A stretch of DNA of 64,000 nt, from assembly GCA_020881915.1 (NCBI GenBank), contig JAJFPB010000002.1, positions 3,348,001 through 3,412,000 of the forward strand, written 5' to 3'. This stretch comes from Paramyrothecium sp. XJ0827 (Eukaryota > Ascomycota > Sordariomycetes > Hypocreales > Stachybotryaceae). Shown in pieces: positions 15,033 to 51,900 of this stretch (its first letter is position 1; the number at the start of each line of letters is the position of its first letter). A program made the translations under genes and the position numbers. The notes below the pieces were generated by a model that ran no database searches, had not been told where the DNA came from, and was given only the letters and a program-made list of their open reading frames with translations.

Positions 15033-15236
15033 TCACTGCCGATTTAAGATAGCCATAGACTGGGCCAGCCCAGTCTTCATAATTGCCGCCGGCGGCATTA
15101 TGAAGCTCCTGGCTAAGGTCGGTTGATGTTCAAGAGGCCTAGACCTGGCGACTGTATCCAGCTGCTTCTGAGCCTGCGAATCTCGAAACCGGTCAGCGTC
15201 GACTTGATGAGGCGCACGACCTTTCCCATGGCCCAG

Positions 15237-15415
15237 GTTGAATGTGTTGGATTTACGCGGGAAGTATTCGCTAGATGGGCCTGCGCGCCGTCAAACTCAA
15301 CCCAGGAAATTGCACTCGTCGCTGGGGTTGAGTGTGTTTGATTGACGGGGGACGTGTTCGCGAGACGGGCCTGCGCGCCGTCAAACTCAATCAGGAAATT
15401 GCACTCGTCGCTGGG
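15237..15415. repeat. Tandem duplication, 90-bp period, inside helicase relic
   Basis: Copy 1 spans 15237-15326 and copy 2 15327-15415. Both contain GGGCCTGCGCGCCGTCAAAC and GGAAATTGCACTCGTCGCTG. Copy 2 is one base shorter, so the same DNA is read in two frames across the junction on the minus strand. Confidence 0.85.
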
Positions 15416-15441
15416 GAGACGACTGTTGCCAACTACTTCAA

Positions 15442-15706
15442 TCTTTACAAATTGAGGTATATTGGTCAGAGCTTGCGGCCAGTTGTCTCCCGAGTGGTGC
15501 CGCATGATGCCGTGGTACGCAAGACGATTTGCAAGGGCCGTGCTACACTCATTACCAGCGAGAGCGCTCTTGCCAGCAAGAACGCTCTCGCCAGCTTTTC
15601 CAGTCTTTACAAACTGAAGTATGTTGTTCAGAGCTTGCGGCCAGTTGTCTCCCGAGTGGTGCCGCATGATGCCGTGATACGCGAGACGATTCGCGAGCGC
15701 TGTGCT
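15442..15706. repeat. Direct duplication, 162-bp period, inside helicase relic
   Basis: The 103-bp segment 15442-15544 is repeated at 15604-15706, both containing CAGAGCTTGCGGCCAGTTGT and GTGGTGCCGCATGATGCCGT. The period is a multiple of three, so the minus-strand frame is kept and the peptide block 'ALANRLAYHGIMRHHSGDNW' appears twice. Confidence 0.88.
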
Positions 15707-15904
15707 GTTCCCGTACCCACGATAGTTGACAGTGAGGTAGGCACCGGTAACACCAGCACAAACAGCCCTCTCAAGCGTAGACGTGGTGAGCTGGTCGATG
15801 AATGGGTTCTCCGAGATGCTTCCCTTCGTATCGTGTTCCATCGAAAAGTAAGGTTTCTTCTGTTTGATGTCACCAGTAAGAATCCAAACCTTGGGGCTGA
15901 AGAA

Positions 15905-16125
15905 CGCGATCGCGATGAGTGTAGTCATCTCATGTACGGTGCCAGCCTCATCGAGGACCACGATGTCCGGTCGGAAGATTTCCCGAAATACGGGCGTCGT
16001 GGCGGCGATTGCGAATAAGGTGGTCATTCGTGCATGGGACCAGCCTCATGCAGAACGACGATATCTGATTTCAAGACATCTCTGAAAACAGGCGTTGCGG
16101 CGGCGATCGGTGTGGTAACAACAGT
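15905..16125. repeat. Degenerate ~98-bp tandem duplication around the helicase motif II
   Basis: The block CCAGCCTCAT occurs at 15942 and again at 16040. The flanking pieces (GGCGATTGCGAATAAGGTGG / GGCGATCGGTGTGGTAACAA and AAATACGGGCGTCGT / AAAACAGGCGTTGCG) also correspond. The 98-bp spacing is not a multiple of three, so the duplication itself breaks the frame. Confidence 0.7.
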
Positions 16126-43372: not shown

Positions 43373-45232
43373 ATGAGGGAAGTCAACTTCAGTATTCCAA
43401 ACGTCAACAAGGCGTCGGTGGGCATCACAACAGCCCTTTATGATCGCCGAGCGCTCGATTGTACATCGACTCTACCTCTCATCAATTCGCTCAATCATCT
43501 AGCATACCTCACCACCTCATCCGCCCGCATTCGCGACATCCTCACCGTCGATGGAGGAATCGAACGACTGGTATGCATCCTGAAGCAGGGCCGCAGCAAG
43601 GATATGATGGGAATGTGGAAATGGAACTTGGCTTTTCAATGCGTTGTGAACATCGGTGTCCGAGGCACCGAGAACGTGCGTACTCGCGTTGTCGAGGCCG
43701 ACATGGTTCCGGTTATCGCCACGATTCTCGATAACTACATCAAAGTCATTGAAAAATGTCGCGAAAAGGCCGAGGAGGTTAAGCAGAAACAACTTCAAGA
43801 TCATCATCGCTATCGAGGCCATGATCATCGAAACGCTGCCAAGGCCTCCTCTTCCTTTACCAACCGCTCGTCCCGTGCCGACCCTGAACAACGGGCTTTC
43901 CGTCGACAAGGGCCCCCTCCATCCATCGATGTCTCTGCGACCTATGCAGGTCCATCAACCGCTACCCCGCAGACCATGGAGTCTGGCCAAGGCACTTCTC
44001 AACAAGCACTCGGTGCTCAAGACCGTCAAACCGGAGCTACAACTCGTCATCGCTTCGGCTTCCAGGCATCCGAAGGCAGACACGCAGGCGCTGTCACACC
44101 AAGACAAACCATCCAGCCACTAGCGACGGCCATCTCAACAATGGAGCCTGCTGATGGATTTGTCAGACCTGTGCGTGATGTCGACCGCCTGGCATCTATG
44201 GCGCCGTTTGGCCCCAACGACCTTGCCTCACAACCAACTTCTCCTACTACTCCGCTTCCGCCACCTCAGCTTCGCTCGCCAACGGTCCGACCTGCATCTA
44301 TCGGACCTTCTGGTCGGCCACGTCGACGGCCTTCAATTCGACACCAAAATTCGACCGTCGAGGCTGACGATCTCAACGGAGACAGCCTGCCCTCTGACGA
44401 ATCGCCAGACGCTGAGATGACGGGTACTGCAGAGATGCAATCCGAAGTTGGCATTCAAGACATCACAATGGATGACAACGAAGGCATGCTCACGGGGGCG
44501 TCGCTAGAGCTTACTGCTCCCACAGTATCCGAGACGCACCAAGATGCTGGGACCTTCAATATCACCCACCGTGCCCCTATGGACGGCAGCATCGGCAACA
44601 CTACAAACACGACCCCGGTGCCACCAATAGGATTGTCCCCCAACAGACCAACCATAGTGAGCCCGCCACAGGCCCCTGCTCATCACACCACCGTACCCCG
44701 CTACCTTCTTGATCGTAACTACGTCCCGAACCCGCAGATGCTCGCTGCTATGCCGCGGGAAGAAGACGTCCTCATGTCACTGCAGCTACTCGCTTACGTC
44801 TCCAAATACTGCGGCTTACGATCCTACTTCCAGAAAAGCCATCTTGTACCTCGCCTCACCATCAGCAAGGAGCTAGCGGCTCTCGACAATGAAGATGAGA
44901 TTGTCGATGTCGATGACTCAGAGGATATGGATGAAGAATACCTCCTTCCAGATGACTTCAATCTCTTCCCACTTGTTGAAAAGTTCACTGTTAGGTATCA
45001 CAGCACCGACATGCAGTACTGGGCAGGAGTGGTTATGAGAAACCTTTGCCGTAAGGACGATACTCGAGGTGGTATCCGACAATGCGCGTACTACCAGTGC
45101 GGAAAGTGGGAGGAGTATACTCGTCAGTTCGCCAAATGCCGACGATGCCGCCGGACGAAGTACTGCAGCAAAGAATGCCAGAAGAGCGCATGGGCTTTCC
45201 ACAGGCACTGGTGCGTCGCAGCTAGCCAGTGA
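43373..45232 (+). CDS. MUB1: MUB1/SamB-type MYND zinc-finger protein
   Basis: Single exon, 619 residues. The N-terminal 115 residues form the conserved helical domain ('MREVNFSIPNVNKASVGITT', 'LTVDGGIERLVCILKQGRSK', 'NLAFQCVVNIGVRGTENVRT'). The middle (about 130-470) is a low-complexity Ser/Thr/Pro region. Another conserved block follows ('REEDVLMSLQLLAYVSKYCG'). The C-terminus (571-614) is a MYND finger: C-x4-C, C-x2-C, C-x3-C and H-x3-C spacing from CAYYQC to HRHWC. Yeast Mub1 pairs with the E3 ligase Ubr2 and E2 Rad6 to degrade Rpn4; the Aspergillus relative SamB affects growth polarity and septation. The long CT-rich leader is typical of regulated fungal genes. Confidence 0.93.
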   Translation: MREVNFSIPNVNKASVGITTALYDRRALDCTSTLPLINSLNHLAYLTTSSARIRDILTVDGGIERLVCILKQGRSKDMMGMWKWNLAFQCVVNIGVRGTENVRTRVVEADMVPVIATILDNYIKVIEKCREKAEEVKQKQLQDHHRYRGHDHRNAAKASSSFTNRSSRADPEQRAFRRQGPPPSIDVSATYAGPSTATPQTMESGQGTSQQALGAQDRQTGATTRHRFGFQASEGRHAGAVTPRQTIQPLATAISTMEPADGFVRPVRDVDRLASMAPFGPNDLASQPTSPTTPLPPPQLRSPTVRPASIGPSGRPRRRPSIRHQNSTVEADDLNGDSLPSDESPDAEMTGTAEMQSEVGIQDITMDDNEGMLTGASLELTAPTVSETHQDAGTFNITHRAPMDGSIGNTTNTTPVPPIGLSPNRPTIVSPPQAPAHHTTVPRYLLDRNYVPNPQMLAAMPREEDVLMSLQLLAYVSKYCGLRSYFQKSHLVPRLTISKELAALDNEDEIVDVDDSEDMDEEYLLPDDFNLFPLVEKFTVRYHSTDMQYWAGVVMRNLCRKDDTRGGIRQCAYYQCGKWEEYTRQFAKCRRCRRTKYCSKECQKSAWAFHRHWCVAASQ

Positions 45233-46103
45233 ACTGCGCTCCAGTCGCTGCGGGTTTGAGACCTTTGCAAAATATATGCGACATGATTTTTTGCTTTTCG
45301 AAGGGTTCATTGCAAGGTTGCAACTGCATTATACAGCATTGGTTTGATCAGTGCTCGGCATTCTTCTCGATACCACAGGTTCCATGGCGTACAACGGCGA
45401 ATGAGGCAGGCATCATCATTATTATTTTTCATTAGGAATTTGGCCATTTGATTTCTTTACGACGTCATCAGCGGCACAGGGGCACGAACCCGGTTCCGGT
45501 TTGGTATTTGGCAAACGCAGCAGACTAGGCACATCAAATGTAACTACGATTATGCACAGACAAGCGACGATTGATCCGTATTTGCATTGCTGCCGTGATG
45601 ATCAACCACATTCCAGCGTGAACGCTTGAATTCGGTGACTGCGAACTATAAGTTGCCCAAATAAGGAGGTATTGACCACCCGTTTGGAAAGGTTAAGAGC
45701 AGACACCGAATTGCGAAACGATGGCATGGCAGTGGATCATCGCAGGTATTCGAAGGTTAGATGGAGGCAGCCCGTGATCATTCGTAACGTAGGCAGCGCA
45801 GGAATCAACCATATCCCTTCACACTTTCACATAATCCGGACCTGGTGATCGCTACAAATCTGCATGCACGTCGCAGGGCTGAGCTGGCAAGTTCAGGAGA
45901 GCCAACCCCTGCCAGCCGCGCAGGCTCAGGATTGGGAACACATGAAGTGATACCGCCCAAGGAACAAATATCTCTTTTGAACTTTTATGATACACATGGA
46001 AGACCAACGCCAACGGCAAATCGTAATTTAAAGATCCTAGTTTTCCTTCTCTAATGATGAACATGGGTTCAGTCACGCACCCACGAGCATGCGACGCATC
46101 CCT
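45233..46103. other. Convergent 3' region of MUB1 and EBP2
   Basis: No protein-like frame of note. GGGTTCGTGCCCC on the minus strand near 45490 resembles a tRNA T-arm but nothing around it folds into a tRNA. Confidence 0.45.
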
Positions 46104-47470
46104 TTAACGAGACGACATGGCCTTCCGCCTGCTCTTCCCCGGCCGAGTTGCCTTGGTCACCCTGCTCTTACCCCCGGCCTTCATCTTCTTGGCGTTGAAG
46201 CCGCTGAGGTCGCCGGAGCTGGCCGCGTCACCGGATTTGGAGTGGCGCTTCTTGCCGCCGAAGCCGTACTTCTCGTTCTTCTTCTGGCGCTTGACGTTGG
46301 AGCCGCCGCGGGACGCTCCCATCTGGCCACGGCCGGAGCCGGAGCGCTGCGAGTGCTTGGCCAACTCGGTGTCGACGCCGACGTCGAAGAGGTCGGCCTC
46401 GTTGGTGCCGACATCACCTCCTGATTCTTGGCGCTCTGGATAGGCGGGTTAGCCTGCTGCATGGAAGGAGTGGCGGGAAAGGCGGGGAAGGAGTAAAAAT
46501 GCGATGTTATCATGACTTACTTCGCTTCAGATTCTTGATCTTGTCCAGTGTCTCCCGCTTCGCCTTCTGGCGCTCCTGGAGCTTGGCGACCTGCACCTGC
46601 TTGCCGAACTTCTTGAGGTCGCGCAGCTTGCGGGCCTCGGCAGCGGCCTTCTTGTTGGAGGCTTCCTCTACCAGCTTGGCCTTGACCTTCTCCATGTGCG
46701 CGTCCTCCTTCACCATCTCCGCGAAGTAGTCCTTGGGTCTCGAAAAGGGAACACCCTCGGCGCGGAGCTTGGCGCGGCCCAGGCGAACGGCCTCGAGACT
46801 CTGCGTGTAGAATGCCAGCTCGCGCTGGAGATCGTCAGACACATCGGGGATCGAGCTGGCTGTCTCGGCGGAAGAAGTGATGGATTGGTGGTTGGCGAAA
46901 GGCACATTCTTGCCCGTGGATAGCGCAATACGGTTTAATGAGGCATTGATGGCGGCGGTGTTGTAGATGGTGAGTTTGGTGTGAGGAATCAGGTCTTCCT
47001 TGTCCTCCTCGTCAAGATCTTCCAGGTCGGATATGGGAATGTCTTCCTCGTCTTCTTCTTCCTCGTCATCGTCGTCATCGGCGTTGGGCTTCGAGCCCTT
47101 CTTGACCTTGCGATCGATCTTCTCCTCGTACTCCAAGGACGACTCGGACGTGTCGCTGTCGTTGATGGCATCGAGGTCCATCTGCGAAAATGGATGCATT
47201 AGCCAGGGCGACTCAGTCATGTCGGGTAGTGTGACAAACCTGGTCAAGCTCTTCTTTCTCCTCGTCATCCTCCTCCTCCTCATCGGAGTGGTCCTCGGCC
47301 TCGCTCTCCTCTACCTGTCGGTCCTCGACGGCCGGTGATGAAGCGGGTGCCCCACCATTGTTCGCCTTCTTCTTGAGCGCTTCCTTCTGTTTTTTCTGCT
47401 GCTTTAATTTGGCGAAATCGACGCCCTTCTCAGCGGCCAGCGCTTGCCGCAGCTTGCTTTTTGTGACCAT
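46104..47470 (-). CDS. EBP2: EBP2, rRNA-processing protein
   Basis: Exons 47240-47470, 46521-47181 and 46104-46435 give 407 residues. Introns: 47182-47239 (GTTTGT, CTAAT branch, CGCAG) and 46436-46520 (GTAAGT, CTAAC branch, TCCAG). The start MVTKSKLRQALAAEKGVDFA leads into acidic runs (residues 55-75 and 95-125). The Ebp2 core follows: 'TIYNTAAINASLNRIALSTG', 'FYTQSLEAVRLGRAKLRAEG', 'FSRPKDYFAEMVKEDAHMEK'. The C-terminus is basic ('KRQKKNEKYGFGGKKRHSKS', 'RPGKSRRKAM'), typical of nucleolar proteins. Ebp2 is needed for 27S pre-rRNA maturation and 60S assembly. Confidence 0.95.
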
Positions 47471-48292
47471 GGTTGCTGCGTTGGTTGTGGGGGTTGGAGT
47501 GATCCTAGTAGTGAGAGAGCGATACTACTGCTTTGCAGCGGCCTCAGAAAAAAAGTTCGCGAACGTGGGTATCTTGGCCGATTCTGCCAATCAATGGGCT
47601 ACACCGCCTACGATCTTTGGGCTCGGCCAAGTCCTTAGTACCGGGTCCACCCCACCTCACCAATATGCCGTTTCTTTCTCGCATCTAACAGACTTACCCT
47701 GTATGTATGCAACTTGTGTCAATGAGTTGATTGTTTGTTAGTTGACTTTCGTTTTCTGAGTTCGGGGGTCTGTGCTAAATTGGGGGGTCCTTGTTCTGTG
47801 AGGCTTTTCTGACGAATAGTATTGATAATTACTGAGCACAATTGCTGGCGTGTTCGACCACCAAAGAGGAGAGGCGCAGTGGAACGTGTTCTTCATATAA
47901 ACAGACATACATGTTGAGTTTACTTCACTTGGAGCACGAACAAGGACGATAGTCACGAAGGAGAAGTTAGTTCGATAGCGGTTGATATTGCCACTAAGTA
48001 CAAATCTTGAAGTGAAGTTCCAACATTCTGTCCTGCAAACCTTCGGACAGTTCATCCGCCCGCCGAGGCTGGCACAGCCTCAGGGATTGCAATTAAAAAG
48101 AGCACTTGAACATGCGTCGCTGTTGATGTTCGAATGCCATTGATGGTAAGAAAGCGCATCGGCCGCATCGGAATAGGCGAATAATGTGTGTTGTTTCCTC
48201 GAAGCCCCGGATGAAGATAAGATTAAGGATACTCGAGGTAAGTCGACTGTTTTCGGGCCACTATCCGTCGGGATTTCGCATCCCAAGCGCAA
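47471..48292. other. Region between EBP2 and the pheromone-precursor gene
   Basis: Upstream of EBP2 (promoter) and downstream of the pheromone gene (3' flank). Only short, featureless frames are present. Confidence 0.45.
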
Positions 48293-48460
48293 TTACATGA
48301 TGGTGCAGCCCTGTGGAGTAGCTTCTGGGTGCGTCGGCTTGGCCATGACGGTGCAGCCTTGCGGCGTGGCCTCGGGGCGGGTGGGCTTTGACATGATGGT
48401 GCAGCCCTGGGGCGTGGCTTGAGGAGCATCAGGGCCCTTGTTGACGTTGTGGGAAGGCAT
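48293..48460 (-). CDS. Hybrid (h-type) peptide pheromone precursor with three CaaX-like repeats
   Basis: A 55-residue open frame from the ATG at 48460 to the TAA at 48293-48295. After MPSHNVNKGPD come three repeats: APQATPQGCTIM (12-23), SKPTRPEATPQGCTVM (24-39) and AKPTHPEATPQGCTIM (40-55). The last Cys-Thr-Ile-Met is the true C-terminus and a good CaaX box (X = Met favours farnesylation, then Rce1/Ste24 cleavage and Ste14 methylation, as for yeast a-factor). Trichoderma has a 'hybrid' pheromone precursor, HPP1, with repeated GC(T/S)VM motifs, and this gene resembles it. No signal peptide and no Lys-Arg Kex2 site is visible. The two full repeats differ at eight synonymous sites and at only three conservative replacements, which argues for a selected protein. 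A TATA-like box lies about 120 bp upstream. No receptor or mating-type gene is nearby. Confidence 0.8.
   Translation of the reverse strand: MPSHNVNKGPDAPQATPQGCTIMSKPTRPEATPQGCTVMAKPTHPEATPQGCTIM
48296..48427 (-). repeat. 48-bp coding repeat units of the pheromone precursor
   Basis: Units on the minus strand are 48427-48392 (36 bp, partial), 48391-48344 and 48343-48296 (48 bp each). GGCTGCACC is identical in all three; most other third positions vary. Confidence 0.9.
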
Positions 48461-49311
48461 ATTGAGGAAGTATGTTTTTGTTTGGATTTGTTGAAGGTTT
48501 AGAAATGCTTTGAGAGTCGGATAAAGATGTTCTTGATGATGGCCAGGCCCAAACGGAGGAGGGCGCAGCCTGGCCCTTCTATATATGACGAGGACTGAAC
48601 AGAGGTCATCGAATACCTGCTTAAAGAAATAATGAGGCTGGTCTGTTCACCACCAGCTTTCATGTTAGGATCATTGTTTACCAGTAGGTCGGTTTCTTAG
48701 TATTGTTCTTACATATTGTCTCCAAAGAGCCAACCGAAGACTCTGTGGCCAACGTGAACTTGGCCCCGCTGATGTCGCCGCCAAGTTCGGTGGCACCTAA
48801 GAGTGCCCCTGCAGTATATTGAGCATGATTAGGATTGTTCTCATACCCAGGCGACGATGGTTGGATTGATGGAGTCTAGCTCCGTCGAAGACCAACGAAA
48901 GGCATCGTCTGAGAAAAGACCACAACATCCCCTCTTGCAAAAACCATCATTCGACTGTGGTCCACTGCCTCTTATCCCTCCTTTTCTTGCCTTTCTCCTT
49001 GATCACAAGAACGGGGAGGACAACGCACGGCAACCTGCTTTGGTCTGAACGAATGCGCCGAGAGCGACGTGTCTTGAGTAGTGTTCCTTCTGTTGCTGTG
49101 GAATAGTGCAGCAGGATTTTCTCCCCTCTACAACCGCTTCACAAGGGATAATATGCCAAACTGTGAGCTTTCATGTTGATATGTTCTTTTCATTCAGCTA
49201 GCATTGTTCTACCAGCCACGATTTAGCCACCATCACTAAGACAGCCATGCCCAGTGTTCCAAGGGAGAGATGTGGGGGATTGAAGCTGGACCAGGACGAC
49301 GACCCCAACGA
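48461..49311. other. Upstream region of the pheromone gene, downstream of cyanase
   Basis: No supported coding besides the promoter element listed. The 63-codon frame at 48857-49048 has no family signal. Confidence 0.45.
48579..48586 (-). promoter_or_regulatory. TATA-like box of the pheromone gene
   Basis: ATATATAG on the minus strand, about 120 bp upstream of the ATG at 48460 and in a suitable place for a strongly regulated fungal promoter. Position is seen directly; function is inferred. Confidence 0.45.
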
Positions 49312-49909
49312 TTAGAACCGCGTAAATGGCAACCTGTCCATGTTAGCCACAGAGCATTGCCGGGAACACAAGGGGCCTGGGGTGCACTTACCATTTGCCT
49401 CGAAGGGTGATGACCACCCAGGATGCGCCGCTATCATCAACCTCCTTATCCACGGTTGACGAGAAGCAGATTGCGCTCATGATGCCATCGCCAAACTTCT
49501 CATTCAAAATGGCCTTGTACGCGTAGCCGTAATTCTGTACGATCTCATACAACCTGTAGATGAGTGGCTCCACGGGAGGCATGGGGCCGGCACGACCTCG
49601 ATCTGGGAAGCCTGCCAGTTGGGATGCCAGCGCGTCCTTGGGTAGCTCGAGCAGCTGGGAGAGCCGGTCGATGTCTTCTGAGGAAGCAGTGGCTTGGCCA
49701 TAGAACAAAGCCGCACAGGCAACCTCACTGCGGTCTAGATGCTTGGCAATAGCTTCAAAGCTGAGACCCTTGGAAGCTTTGGCTTCGAATAGAGTCGCGC
49801 AGTGAGGCGGGAGCCGTTGGGCAATCGTGGGCTACAATACGGTCAATGCTTTTCTTCACTGATCGCCATCTTGACCTACATCTAGAGTAGCGATTCGTCC
49901 CTCAGACAT
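49312..49909 (-). CDS. CYN1: Cyanate hydratase (cyanase)
   Basis: Exons 49880-49909, 49392-49831 and 49312-49333 give 163 residues, the usual cyanase length. Introns: 49832-49879 (48 nt, GTAGGT...TTGTAG) and 49334-49391 (58 nt, GTAAGT, GCTAAC branch, GACAG). The tiny last exon completes the family C-terminus 'KWLPFTRF'. The N-terminal helix-turn-helix-like half ('[20 protein letters not shown]') precedes the catalytic half ('[17 protein letters not shown]', '[20 protein letters not shown]'). By alignment with the E. coli enzyme the catalytic residues are Arg103, Glu106 and Ser129. The enzyme converts cyanate and bicarbonate to ammonia and CO2 in the cytosol and acts as a decamer. It is present in many fungi. 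Confidence 0.96.
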
Positions 49910-50953
49910 TTTGCGGGGAAATTGCGATCCAGGTCAATACGGGGTTTGATTGAAAGTAGGGTGAAAGAGGCGGCAAGGAGGCCCAACAATGTGTAGACAA
50001 GGTCCGCGCTTAATATTGTTCTTGCCTAGGGTGGAGGGATGAAGCTGTCGAGGAGGCTTAGGTTTGCGGAAATGGACCAAACCGACGGAGACAATGGCTC
50101 GACTATATATCAGTCCCCGCGCTCGGCAAGCCACATCGACAGGCCTCAATCCACCTGCATTACTTCAGCCATCTATCGCAAGTTACAGTAGACCAAGCTA
50201 CGAGCGAATGTGGACTCTATTTCCCCTCTGCGGGGTCAATGGGCTTTGTGACGTTGATTCCTCGCTGTATCGGCGATCTGCCGGAGTTTCGGTAACTCAG
50301 AAGATGTGGCTAGCCATGTTCAGTTCATGCATACCTCCTAGACATCTCCGATTTTGGGAGACGCAGGCTCAACGCGCAGGCAACGCGGGGAATTGATGAC
50401 GGGTCAATATCCAGTCTTGTGCATGTCTGATGAGAAAGAATACACTCTGGACCAGTTTGCGCATTGTGCGTACTCTAGTCTAGGAAGAGAGTGTCATGAT
50501 TTGAAAAAAAGTAGACTAAGCCCAAGACTCTTTGTCAACCCCGATCAGGCGTCCAATTTGTCATGTCGATTCTCAATTACGAGACGCTGCACTACCGATG
50601 CCGAGGACAAGACGGAGTGAGGACGGCAGACAGGGGACGAATCCCGCCGTAGCCGGAGACCCCACACAGATCACTCAAACGCCGCCCAATCAAGATTCCT
50701 ACTGATAAGGAAGGACCCTTGTGTGGGGACAAAAATTCCAAACTACCTTACCTGATGGAGGATGTTGGTCCCAAATCTCGTCTGTGATTTCGATATCTCG
50801 TGAAATCTTCGAAGACGACGCGGGACGATTTAATCCGGTTTGAATAGGCGACCATCAAAGAACCTCCCACCCGAGCAAATTGTCCACGATTTTGTTCTCG
50901 AGCGCCCCACTGTCAGACATAGGCGAGAGAGAAGATCATTCCTTGAGTTCACC
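49910..50953. other. Divergent promoter region between cyanase and the basic-protein gene
   Basis: 1.0 kb with no supported gene; CTACCTTACCTGATGG at about 50742 belongs to the dispersed AGGTA-word family. Confidence 0.45.
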
Positions 50954-51900
50954 ATGCCTCACAAACACAAGAGAAAGCGTGGAGAGGATTCAGAGTAGGT
51001 CATTCTCTTCTCCAGTTTCATAAGCGAGCGTCTGACTGATTAAACCAAAGCTATGATCTACCCCCATCGCAGAAGGCTCGCCCACTCCCCGTGGGGAAGA
51101 CGCAGAAGACGCCGAACAACGCCGATCGGCCCAAGAAGGCAGACAAGAAACGAAACAAGAAAGACGATGCGCCACGCGCGTTCAAGCGGCTGATGGCAGT
51201 CGCACGTGGCCACAAAATCCGTTCAGGTCTTGACGATGGAAAACCAGTCAAGCCCGAGAAACAGGCGCGAACGGAAGCATCTAGCGACATCCCTCGAATC
51301 CTACCAGGCGAGGACCTCCGCTCCTTTGCAACCCGTGTCGACGCTGCGCTGCCTGTTTCAGGCCTCACTAAAAAGACCGTCGTCAAGGACGGAAAGGACG
51401 AGCAAGGATTCAAGGTGTTCCGCACGCGCAAGGAACGCAAGATGCACAAACTCTACGATCAGTGGCGGGCTGAGGATCAGAAGATCAAAGACAAACGGGA
51501 AGAGGAGCAAGACCTTGCTTACGAGCAGGAGTTGGACGACGAGGCTGCCGGCATCACCGCTATCGCGAATCAAATACAGGCGCCTGCTAAAAAAGGCAAG
51601 AAGTCGCGACGGAAAGTTGACGACGATGACCCCTGGGCGGAGCTCAAGCGGAAGAGGGCCGAAGCCAAGCCCAGGCTTCATGATGTAGCCCAAGCACCAC
51701 CGGAACTCAACAAGAACACGACACGCCAACTCAAGGTTGCTGGGGCAGCGGTCAATGTTGCGAATGTGCCCAAGTCAGCCGGCAGCTTGCGCCGTCGTGA
51801 GGAATTACAGGTAGCCAGGAATGACGTGGTGGAAGCGTACAGGAAAATCAAGGAGCATGAACAAGCCAAACTCGACGCGCAGAAGGCAAAGTCTCGATAA
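50954..51900 (+). CDS. Basic, coiled-coil, nucleolar-type protein of unknown function
   Basis: Exons 50954-50994 and 51051-51900 (intron 50995-51050: GTAGGT, CTGAC branch, CAAAG acceptor) give 296 residues. The start MPHKHKRKRGEDSDYDLPPS and 'QKARPLPVGK' after the junction are characteristic of a conserved fungal family. The body is highly charged, with 'DDAPRAFKRLMAVARGHKIR', 'GEDLRSFATRVDAALPV' and 'FRTRKERKMHKLYDQWRAED', then a coiled coil and 'DDDDPWAELKRKRAEAKPRL'. The family is sometimes named urease accessory protein in databases, but none of the UreG/UreF/UreD motifs is present and that name should not be used. The composition and Lys/Arg clusters suggest a nucleolar or ribosome-assembly role, which is inference only. 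Confidence 0.83.

Follow-up and report, generated by a model that had tools for sequence, protein, structure and literature searches.

A probable repeated a-class pheromone precursor gene at the a-factor locus of a Paramyrothecium-like fungus

Repeated a-class precursors in other fungi

Farnesylated (a-class) pheromone precursors that carry several CaaX or CpaX copies have been published for Trichoderma and Fusarium (PMC3068285), for Verticillium (PMC11077750) and for Ceratocystidaceae including Huntiella (PMC10182648, PMC13037118). The repeated form, called h-type, was reported in 2010 from Hypocreales, and the precursor is described as needed for male fertility (PMC3068285). In that paper T. 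reesei HPP1, the founding h-type precursor, is a 48-residue protein lacking a signal sequence, with three GC(T/S)VM-type copies, a C-terminal CaaX box and two Kex2 sites, which among h-type precursors are given for HPP1 only and are not a requirement of the class. Its gene is flanked by sec23 and a 14-3-3 gene, and the old a-factor locus of Trichoderma is described as holding neither cyanate lyase nor any CaaX gene; the paper does not decide between hpp1 as the replacement for a lost a-factor and hpp1 as a gene that moved.

In several Sordariomycetes the a-factor genes are surrounded by a set of MYND, EBP2 and cyanate lyase genes (PMC3068285). The same source places a repeated CaaX ORF of N. 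haematococca (Fusarium solani) between cyanate lyase and EBP2, together with a second small CaaX ORF, and gives this gene and its F. verticillioides and F. oxysporum orthologues three motif copies, the last C-terminal, and F. graminearum a single copy.

Verticillium dahliae VdPpg2 has 66 residues, five undecapeptide repeats with internal CaaX-like boxes and no predicted signal peptide, and it is drawn with Lys and Asn at the putative processing sites; AACAAT words upstream of the gene are described as binding sites of MAT proteins, and a synthetic single-repeat peptide gave chemotropism results that, according to the authors, need further work (PMC11077750). Ceratocystidaceae precursors hold several copies of the mature peptide, each followed by a CpaX box (PMC10182648, PMC13037118), and Huntiella has up to seven gene copies with 12-residue repeats that start with Arg (PMC10182648).

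A CaaX-ended frame between EBP2 and cyanate lyase

The window studied here is a stretch of 64,000 nucleotides from a genome assembly of 51.77 Mb in 15 contigs. The original prediction described a 55-codon frame with ends GCTIM, GCTVM and GCTIM, the last at the stop; the frame, here called P0001, was found exactly so, on the minus strand, which had been left unstated. It starts at the first in-frame ATG past a stop. Its features and those of its surroundings are collected in Table 1.

Table 1. Coordinates within the window of the precursor frame, its parts, upstream words and neighbouring genes
Feature	Position	Strand	Details
Whole pheromone precursor ORF P0001 (predicted), 55 codons	48293..48460	-	TAA stop at 48295-48293; MPSHNVNK-GPDAPQATPQGCTIM-SKPTRPEATPQGCTVM-AKPTHPEATPQGCTIM-stop
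N-terminal leader MPSHNVNK	48437..48460	-	hydrophilic by eye
Copy 1, GPDAPQATPQGCTIM	48392..48436	-	translation
Copy 2, SKPTRPEATPQGCTVM	48344..48391	-	translation
Copy 3, AKPTHPEATPQGCTIM	48296..48343	-	CTIM is the C-terminal CaaX (CpaX) box
TATATA, candidate TATA box	48580..48585	-	125 bp before the ATG; letter match only
Three AACAAT words	48673..48839	-	48834-48839, 48702-48707, 48673-48678
MYND zinc-finger (samB-like) gene, a-factor locus marker	43373..45232	+	protein 96% identical to that of Paramyrothecium foliicola
EBP2 rRNA-processing gene, downstream neighbour	46510..47470	-	pieces 47213-47470 and 46510-47283
Cyanate lyase gene, upstream neighbour	49388..49909	-	main exon within 49388-49831

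P0001 holds three copies of ATPQGCT[IV]M, with Gln before the Gly; ahead of its ATPQGCTIM end copy 1 has diverged from the others. The TAA follows directly on the last GCTIM, so that CTIM of copy 3 is a C-terminal CAAX/CPAX box. A single Lys precedes each copy, and no dibasic pair (Kex2-type site) was found anywhere in the frame, including between copies. A Pfam search gave no credible family for it. The start MPSHNVNK was judged hydrophilic by eye (GRAVY -0.68), with nothing resembling a signal peptide seen in it. Its MPS...K form recalls the a-type precursors of C. globosum (MPSTTTQTK...) and M. grisea (MSPSTK...) that PMC3068285 prints. Primers for F. oxysporum MFa (PMC13097639), translated by hand, apparently give MPSTKNTT and TPGYPL, which suggests that the MPS start is shared with MFa and that the mature part differs.

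The gene order is MYND, EBP2, P0001, cyanate lyase, with P0001 in the interval between the last two named neighbours, EBP2 and cyanate lyase. The second EBP2 piece matches Pfam Ebp2 at 7e-63 and the first has no Pfam match on its own; the two would be joined across an intron. Cyanate lyase is matched at 1.3e-29 (Pfam Cyanate_lyase), and a short first exon is predicted near 49859-49909. This position is the published a-factor locus, and it is the strongest new evidence for the identity of the gene. P0001 thus has the EBP2, MYND and cyanate lyase position of Sordariomycete a-type genes and 55 residues ending in CTIM; it also has the h-type features of a copy at the extreme C-terminus that makes a CAAX/CPAX box, and of a host in Hypocreales. 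The MYND protein is 96% identical to that of Paramyrothecium foliicola and 84% to that of Stachybotrys chartarum; among the 120 matches listed, the 11 that bear a Fusarium name have 74-76% identity. Paramyrothecium belongs to the Stachybotryaceae, Hypocreales, and the placement of the genome is taken from this one protein. Elsewhere in the window, an ORF at 15113-16027 on the minus strand has a near-exact internal duplication (STALANRLAYHGIMRHHSGDNWPQAL...) and lies beside helicase-like text (by eye); it may be a mobile element or a rearranged gene.

The original prediction had proposed an HPP1-like farnesylated precursor in another hypocrealean fungus. The Stachybotryaceae affiliation and the MYND, EBP2 and cyanate lyase neighbourhood support this, as do the single CaaX-like-ended ORF in the interval and the presence in the genome of receptor, alpha-factor and MAT genes. 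We consider it very probable that P0001 is an a-class (farnesylated) pheromone precursor gene of the repeated h-type in a Paramyrothecium-like fungus. The reading draws on the sequence, the locus and the receptor, prenyltransferase and ICMT family genes that were seen, and from these we infer its expression, processing and function.

Among the closest counterparts is the N. haematococca gene, which has the same number of copies, the same C-terminal placement of the last and the same interval (PMC3068285). By the description in that source, P0001 differs from it in belonging to another fungal family and in its motif, QGCT[IV]M, and the interval around P0001 yielded no second small CaaX ORF. HPP1 is like P0001 in its short length, its three GC(T/S)VM-type copies and its C-terminal CaaX box, and it lacks a signal sequence, as P0001 may do to judge by its hydrophilic-looking start; it differs in its Leu/Ile-Gly-Cys motif start against Gln-Gly-Cys, in its two Kex2 sites against none, and in its position away from the a-factor locus (PMC3068285). 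VdPpg2 shares with P0001 the short length, the internal CaaX-like repeats, Lys among the putative processing sites and AACAAT in the promoter, but has five repeats instead of three (PMC11077750). The Ceratocystidaceae precursors share the several copies with a box after each (PMC10182648, PMC13037118), and one P0001 gene was found here against the up to seven of Huntiella (PMC10182648).

The 500 bp upstream of P0001 hold three AACAAT words, compared with a mean of 0.27 in random pieces of the window (P 0.005; shuffle P 0.010), in a test that was picked post hoc after reading and concerns few sites. There are 0-2 in 11 other ORF-upstream pieces, and the corresponding 500 bp of the alpha-factor gene hold none. 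Within 1 kb upstream of P0001, CAAAG, cited in PMC3068285 as a pheromone-response word, occurs three times (both orientations) and ATTGA four times, as raw counts without a chance comparison. As regulatory evidence the AACAAT sites are weak.

Codon patterns and chance expectations

Between copies 2 and 3, of 16 codons each, 5 codons are identical, 8 differ synonymously and 3 carry replacements (S/A, R/H, V/I); this recount agrees with the eight synonymous differences and three conservative replacements counted before. The 12 nucleotide differences are spread 2, 1 and 9 over codon positions 1, 2 and 3, so that these copies show a purifying pattern, with 9/12 at third positions. The same number of random substitutions would change about 7.5 residues on average, and three or fewer with P about 0.001. 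For the last 11 codons the same test gave P about 0.001 (copies 2-3), 0.01-0.02 (copies 1-3) and 0.04-0.06 (copies 1-2).

The 15-nt core, GGCTGCACC[AG]TCATG on the minus strand (48296-48310, 48344-48358 and 48392-48406), has zero synonymous differences between any pair of copies. Its codons are GGC-TGC-ACC-[AG]TC-ATG, and the Gly-Cys-Thr part reads GGCTGCACC in all three, invariant at the nucleotide level too. From the codon usage of six ORFs in the window, identical Gly, Cys and Thr codons across three copies would be expected at about 0.002. The codons before the core are near-saturated with synonymous change, most clearly in copies 2-3: among codons for the same residue, 8/9 (copies 2-3), 5/6 (1-3) and 4/6 (1-2) differ, and Fisher p values for core against preceding codons are 0.018, 0.048 and 0.17. 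Pairs of the five alpha-factor repeats in this genome show 1-9 nt differences, and all five encode one peptide. The core could reflect local codon choice, short-tract homogenisation or a nucleic-acid constraint. The claimed synonymous excess between repeats therefore stands for the part before the core in copies 2 and 3 and fails within GCTxM; the claimed invariance of Gly-Cys-Thr stands for the residues and not as codon-level evidence, since the core DNA is invariant as well. The codon argument thus backs the frame and the sequence leading up to the core, but does not extend to the internal CaaX residues.

It also has to be asked whether the repeats encode anything on this strand, as an antisense frame at 48297-48422 (+) is open over copies 3 and 2, with 3/15 residues differing. 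Antisense codons share the wobble sites, so copies 2 and 3 alone cannot fix the strand, but copy 1 does: its antisense reading has Trp for Cys and then a stop, while the sense reading keeps ATPQGCTIM. The CaaX box falls exactly at the stop, and the position is that of the a-factor locus. On these grounds both an antisense gene and a frame open by chance across a 48-bp tandem repeat were rejected, and it is scarcely credible that there is no gene here.

Chance was also gauged with 300 dinucleotide shuffles of 45233-51193, using loose CaaX motifs and no requirement of repeat identity. One shuffle of the 300 gave a CaaX-ended frame with at least three loose motifs; in the real region the sole CaaX-ended frame carries three. 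The window has 797 ATG ORFs with 15 aa or more, of which 10, none longer than 120 aa, have a CaaX-like end by the pattern applied; P0001 is the only such ORF of 15-120 aa that starts between 45,200 and 50,500. The codon pattern for Gly-Cys-Thr-(Ile/Val/Met)-Met has 24 matches genome-wide, against 8 for a reversed-pattern control; only the three in P0001 cluster, and the next closest pair is 40 kb apart. A protein search of the whole genome recovered the P0001 place alone, from one scored candidate, and a search among 5.8 billion proteins gave 53 word-sharing candidates, none at E <= 10. This search brought up no relative among predicted proteins, and P0001 is an example of how readily so short a gene escapes notice.

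Mating genes and the proposed lipopeptides

The same genome holds genes for both receptors, STE3 and STE2. The STE2 match contains one TGA, after a donor-like GTATGT and with TTTGCAG further along, which is probably intronic. ICMT and prenyltransferase genes are present at the level of families. The alpha-factor precursor, at C8:991127-991936 (-), has five copies of WCLRPGQSCW, most of them followed by KR. A Fusarium-type alpha-factor pattern has no match in the genome; a looser one matches one place, C14:1410036, which was dismissed as a chance match with no repeat ORF around it; and a still looser one matches 13 places, of which the five that cluster are the real gene. The start of this precursor looks signal-like by eye. 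Its gene is on the same contig as P0001, about 2.4 Mb away.

A MAT1-1 locus lies at C9:2.584-2.598 Mb, with MAT1-1-1 (MATalpha_HMGbox), MAT1-1-2 (its Pfam family) and an HMG-box frame in the opposite orientation that is probably, by its position, MAT1-1-3; the genome has 6 other HMG matches, among which a MAT1-2-1 may lie. The locus is flanked by a SLA2-like frame (I_LWEQ and ANTH domains) and an APN2-like frame of the endonuclease family. On the same contig, C9:2907815-2907966 gave one 5.8S rRNA match among the 39 of 1475 candidates that were scored, in degenerate-looking rDNA-like surroundings with repeats.

In MAT1-1 strains the a-factor is classically not the main pheromone (PMC10182648), and in F. 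oxysporum the two pheromone genes are both expressed in wild types of either mating type (PMC13097639). As this MAT1-1 genome carries the a-class gene, a silent P0001 in this strain would still be compatible with a pheromone role.

Many Stachybotryaceae are known chiefly from asexual states, and P0001 might accordingly be an inactive pheromone gene retained in a lineage where mating is rare or absent. This is improbable: the frame, start and CaaX box are intact, and STE2, with its apparently intronic TGA, STE3, alpha-factor and MAT1-1 genes show no obvious decay in the frames seen. Less probable still is that P0001 encodes a small farnesylated protein with a non-mating role. Proteins other than pheromones do carry CaaX boxes, T. 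reesei HPP1 first came to light in a study of cellulase signalling (PMC3068285), and the F. oxysporum a-pheromone takes part in autocrine control of germination (PMC13097639). However, the locus, size and repeats fit pheromone precursors, and other roles would most likely be additional.

As a pheromone precursor, P0001 would be translated without a signal peptide, the Cys of CTIM would be farnesylated, TIM removed and the Cys carboxymethylated. Cleavage on the N-terminal side of the repeat, probably following the single Lys (NK/GPDAPQATPQGC, SK/PTRPEATPQGC, AK/PTHPEATPQGC), would give a lipopeptide of about 11-12 residues, exported by a Ste6-type transporter and sensed by the partner through a STE3-type receptor. 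The single Lys before each copy, with no dibasic site, matches the Lys at putative VdPpg2 processing sites. Evidence from F. graminearum suggests that a peptide of this kind can act through STE3: the synthetic a-factor QKPGYPLSCTVM attracted wild-type and ste2-deletion hyphae and not ste3 deletions (PMC9769807).

In the internal copies, cleavage after each Met would expose their CaaX boxes and release further lipopeptides; otherwise the last copy alone would be active. A rhodotorucine-like scheme has been proposed for Fusarium h-type precursors. That the two internal copies yield further lipopeptides has about an even chance. We put somewhat below even the reading that the C-terminal copy alone makes the pheromone, as in a single-copy a-factor, with the internal GCTxM copies as spacer or duplication relics. 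Only the final CTIM has a free C-terminus, Kex2-type dibasic sites are absent between copies, and the core lacks synonymous differences, so that internal conservation could be recent homogenisation; PMC3068285 also leaves h-type maturation open, as PMC10182648 does additional processing. On the other side, the residues are retained in copies 2 and 3 even though nearly all same-residue codons before the core differ, and, in the papers cited, Trichoderma, Fusarium, Verticillium and Huntiella all have internal CaaX/CpaX-like copies.

The class has been described from several genera, so P0001 is not categorically new. No earlier pheromone-precursor report for Stachybotryaceae, Stachybotrys or Myrothecium turned up among the open-licence papers listed, and of the papers listed for the peptide letters of P0001 none was on fungal pheromones by title. 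Martin et al. (2011) reportedly contributed a Fusarium study to this field. P0001 brings a further fungal family, the Stachybotryaceae, into the class of repeated-CaaX pheromones. That a second family has such a precursor at what is presumably the ancestral locus may make relocation of Trichoderma hpp1 more likely.

A wider reading, which we rate as less likely than not, joins these points: P0001 would yield three different farnesylated peptides (GPDAPQATPQGC, PTRPEATPQGC and PTHPEATPQGC) by an uncharacterised single-Lys protease route that lays bare the internal CaaX boxes without Kex2 sites, and the repeated form would be ancestral at the a-factor locus in Nectriaceae and Stachybotryaceae at least, with hpp1 a relocated copy and not a replacement. 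P0001 supplies concrete peptides for the question, open in PMC3068285 and PMC10182648, of whether internal CaaX copies mature. If the wider reading is true, one 55-residue precursor would be a built-in pheromone blend of three peptides.
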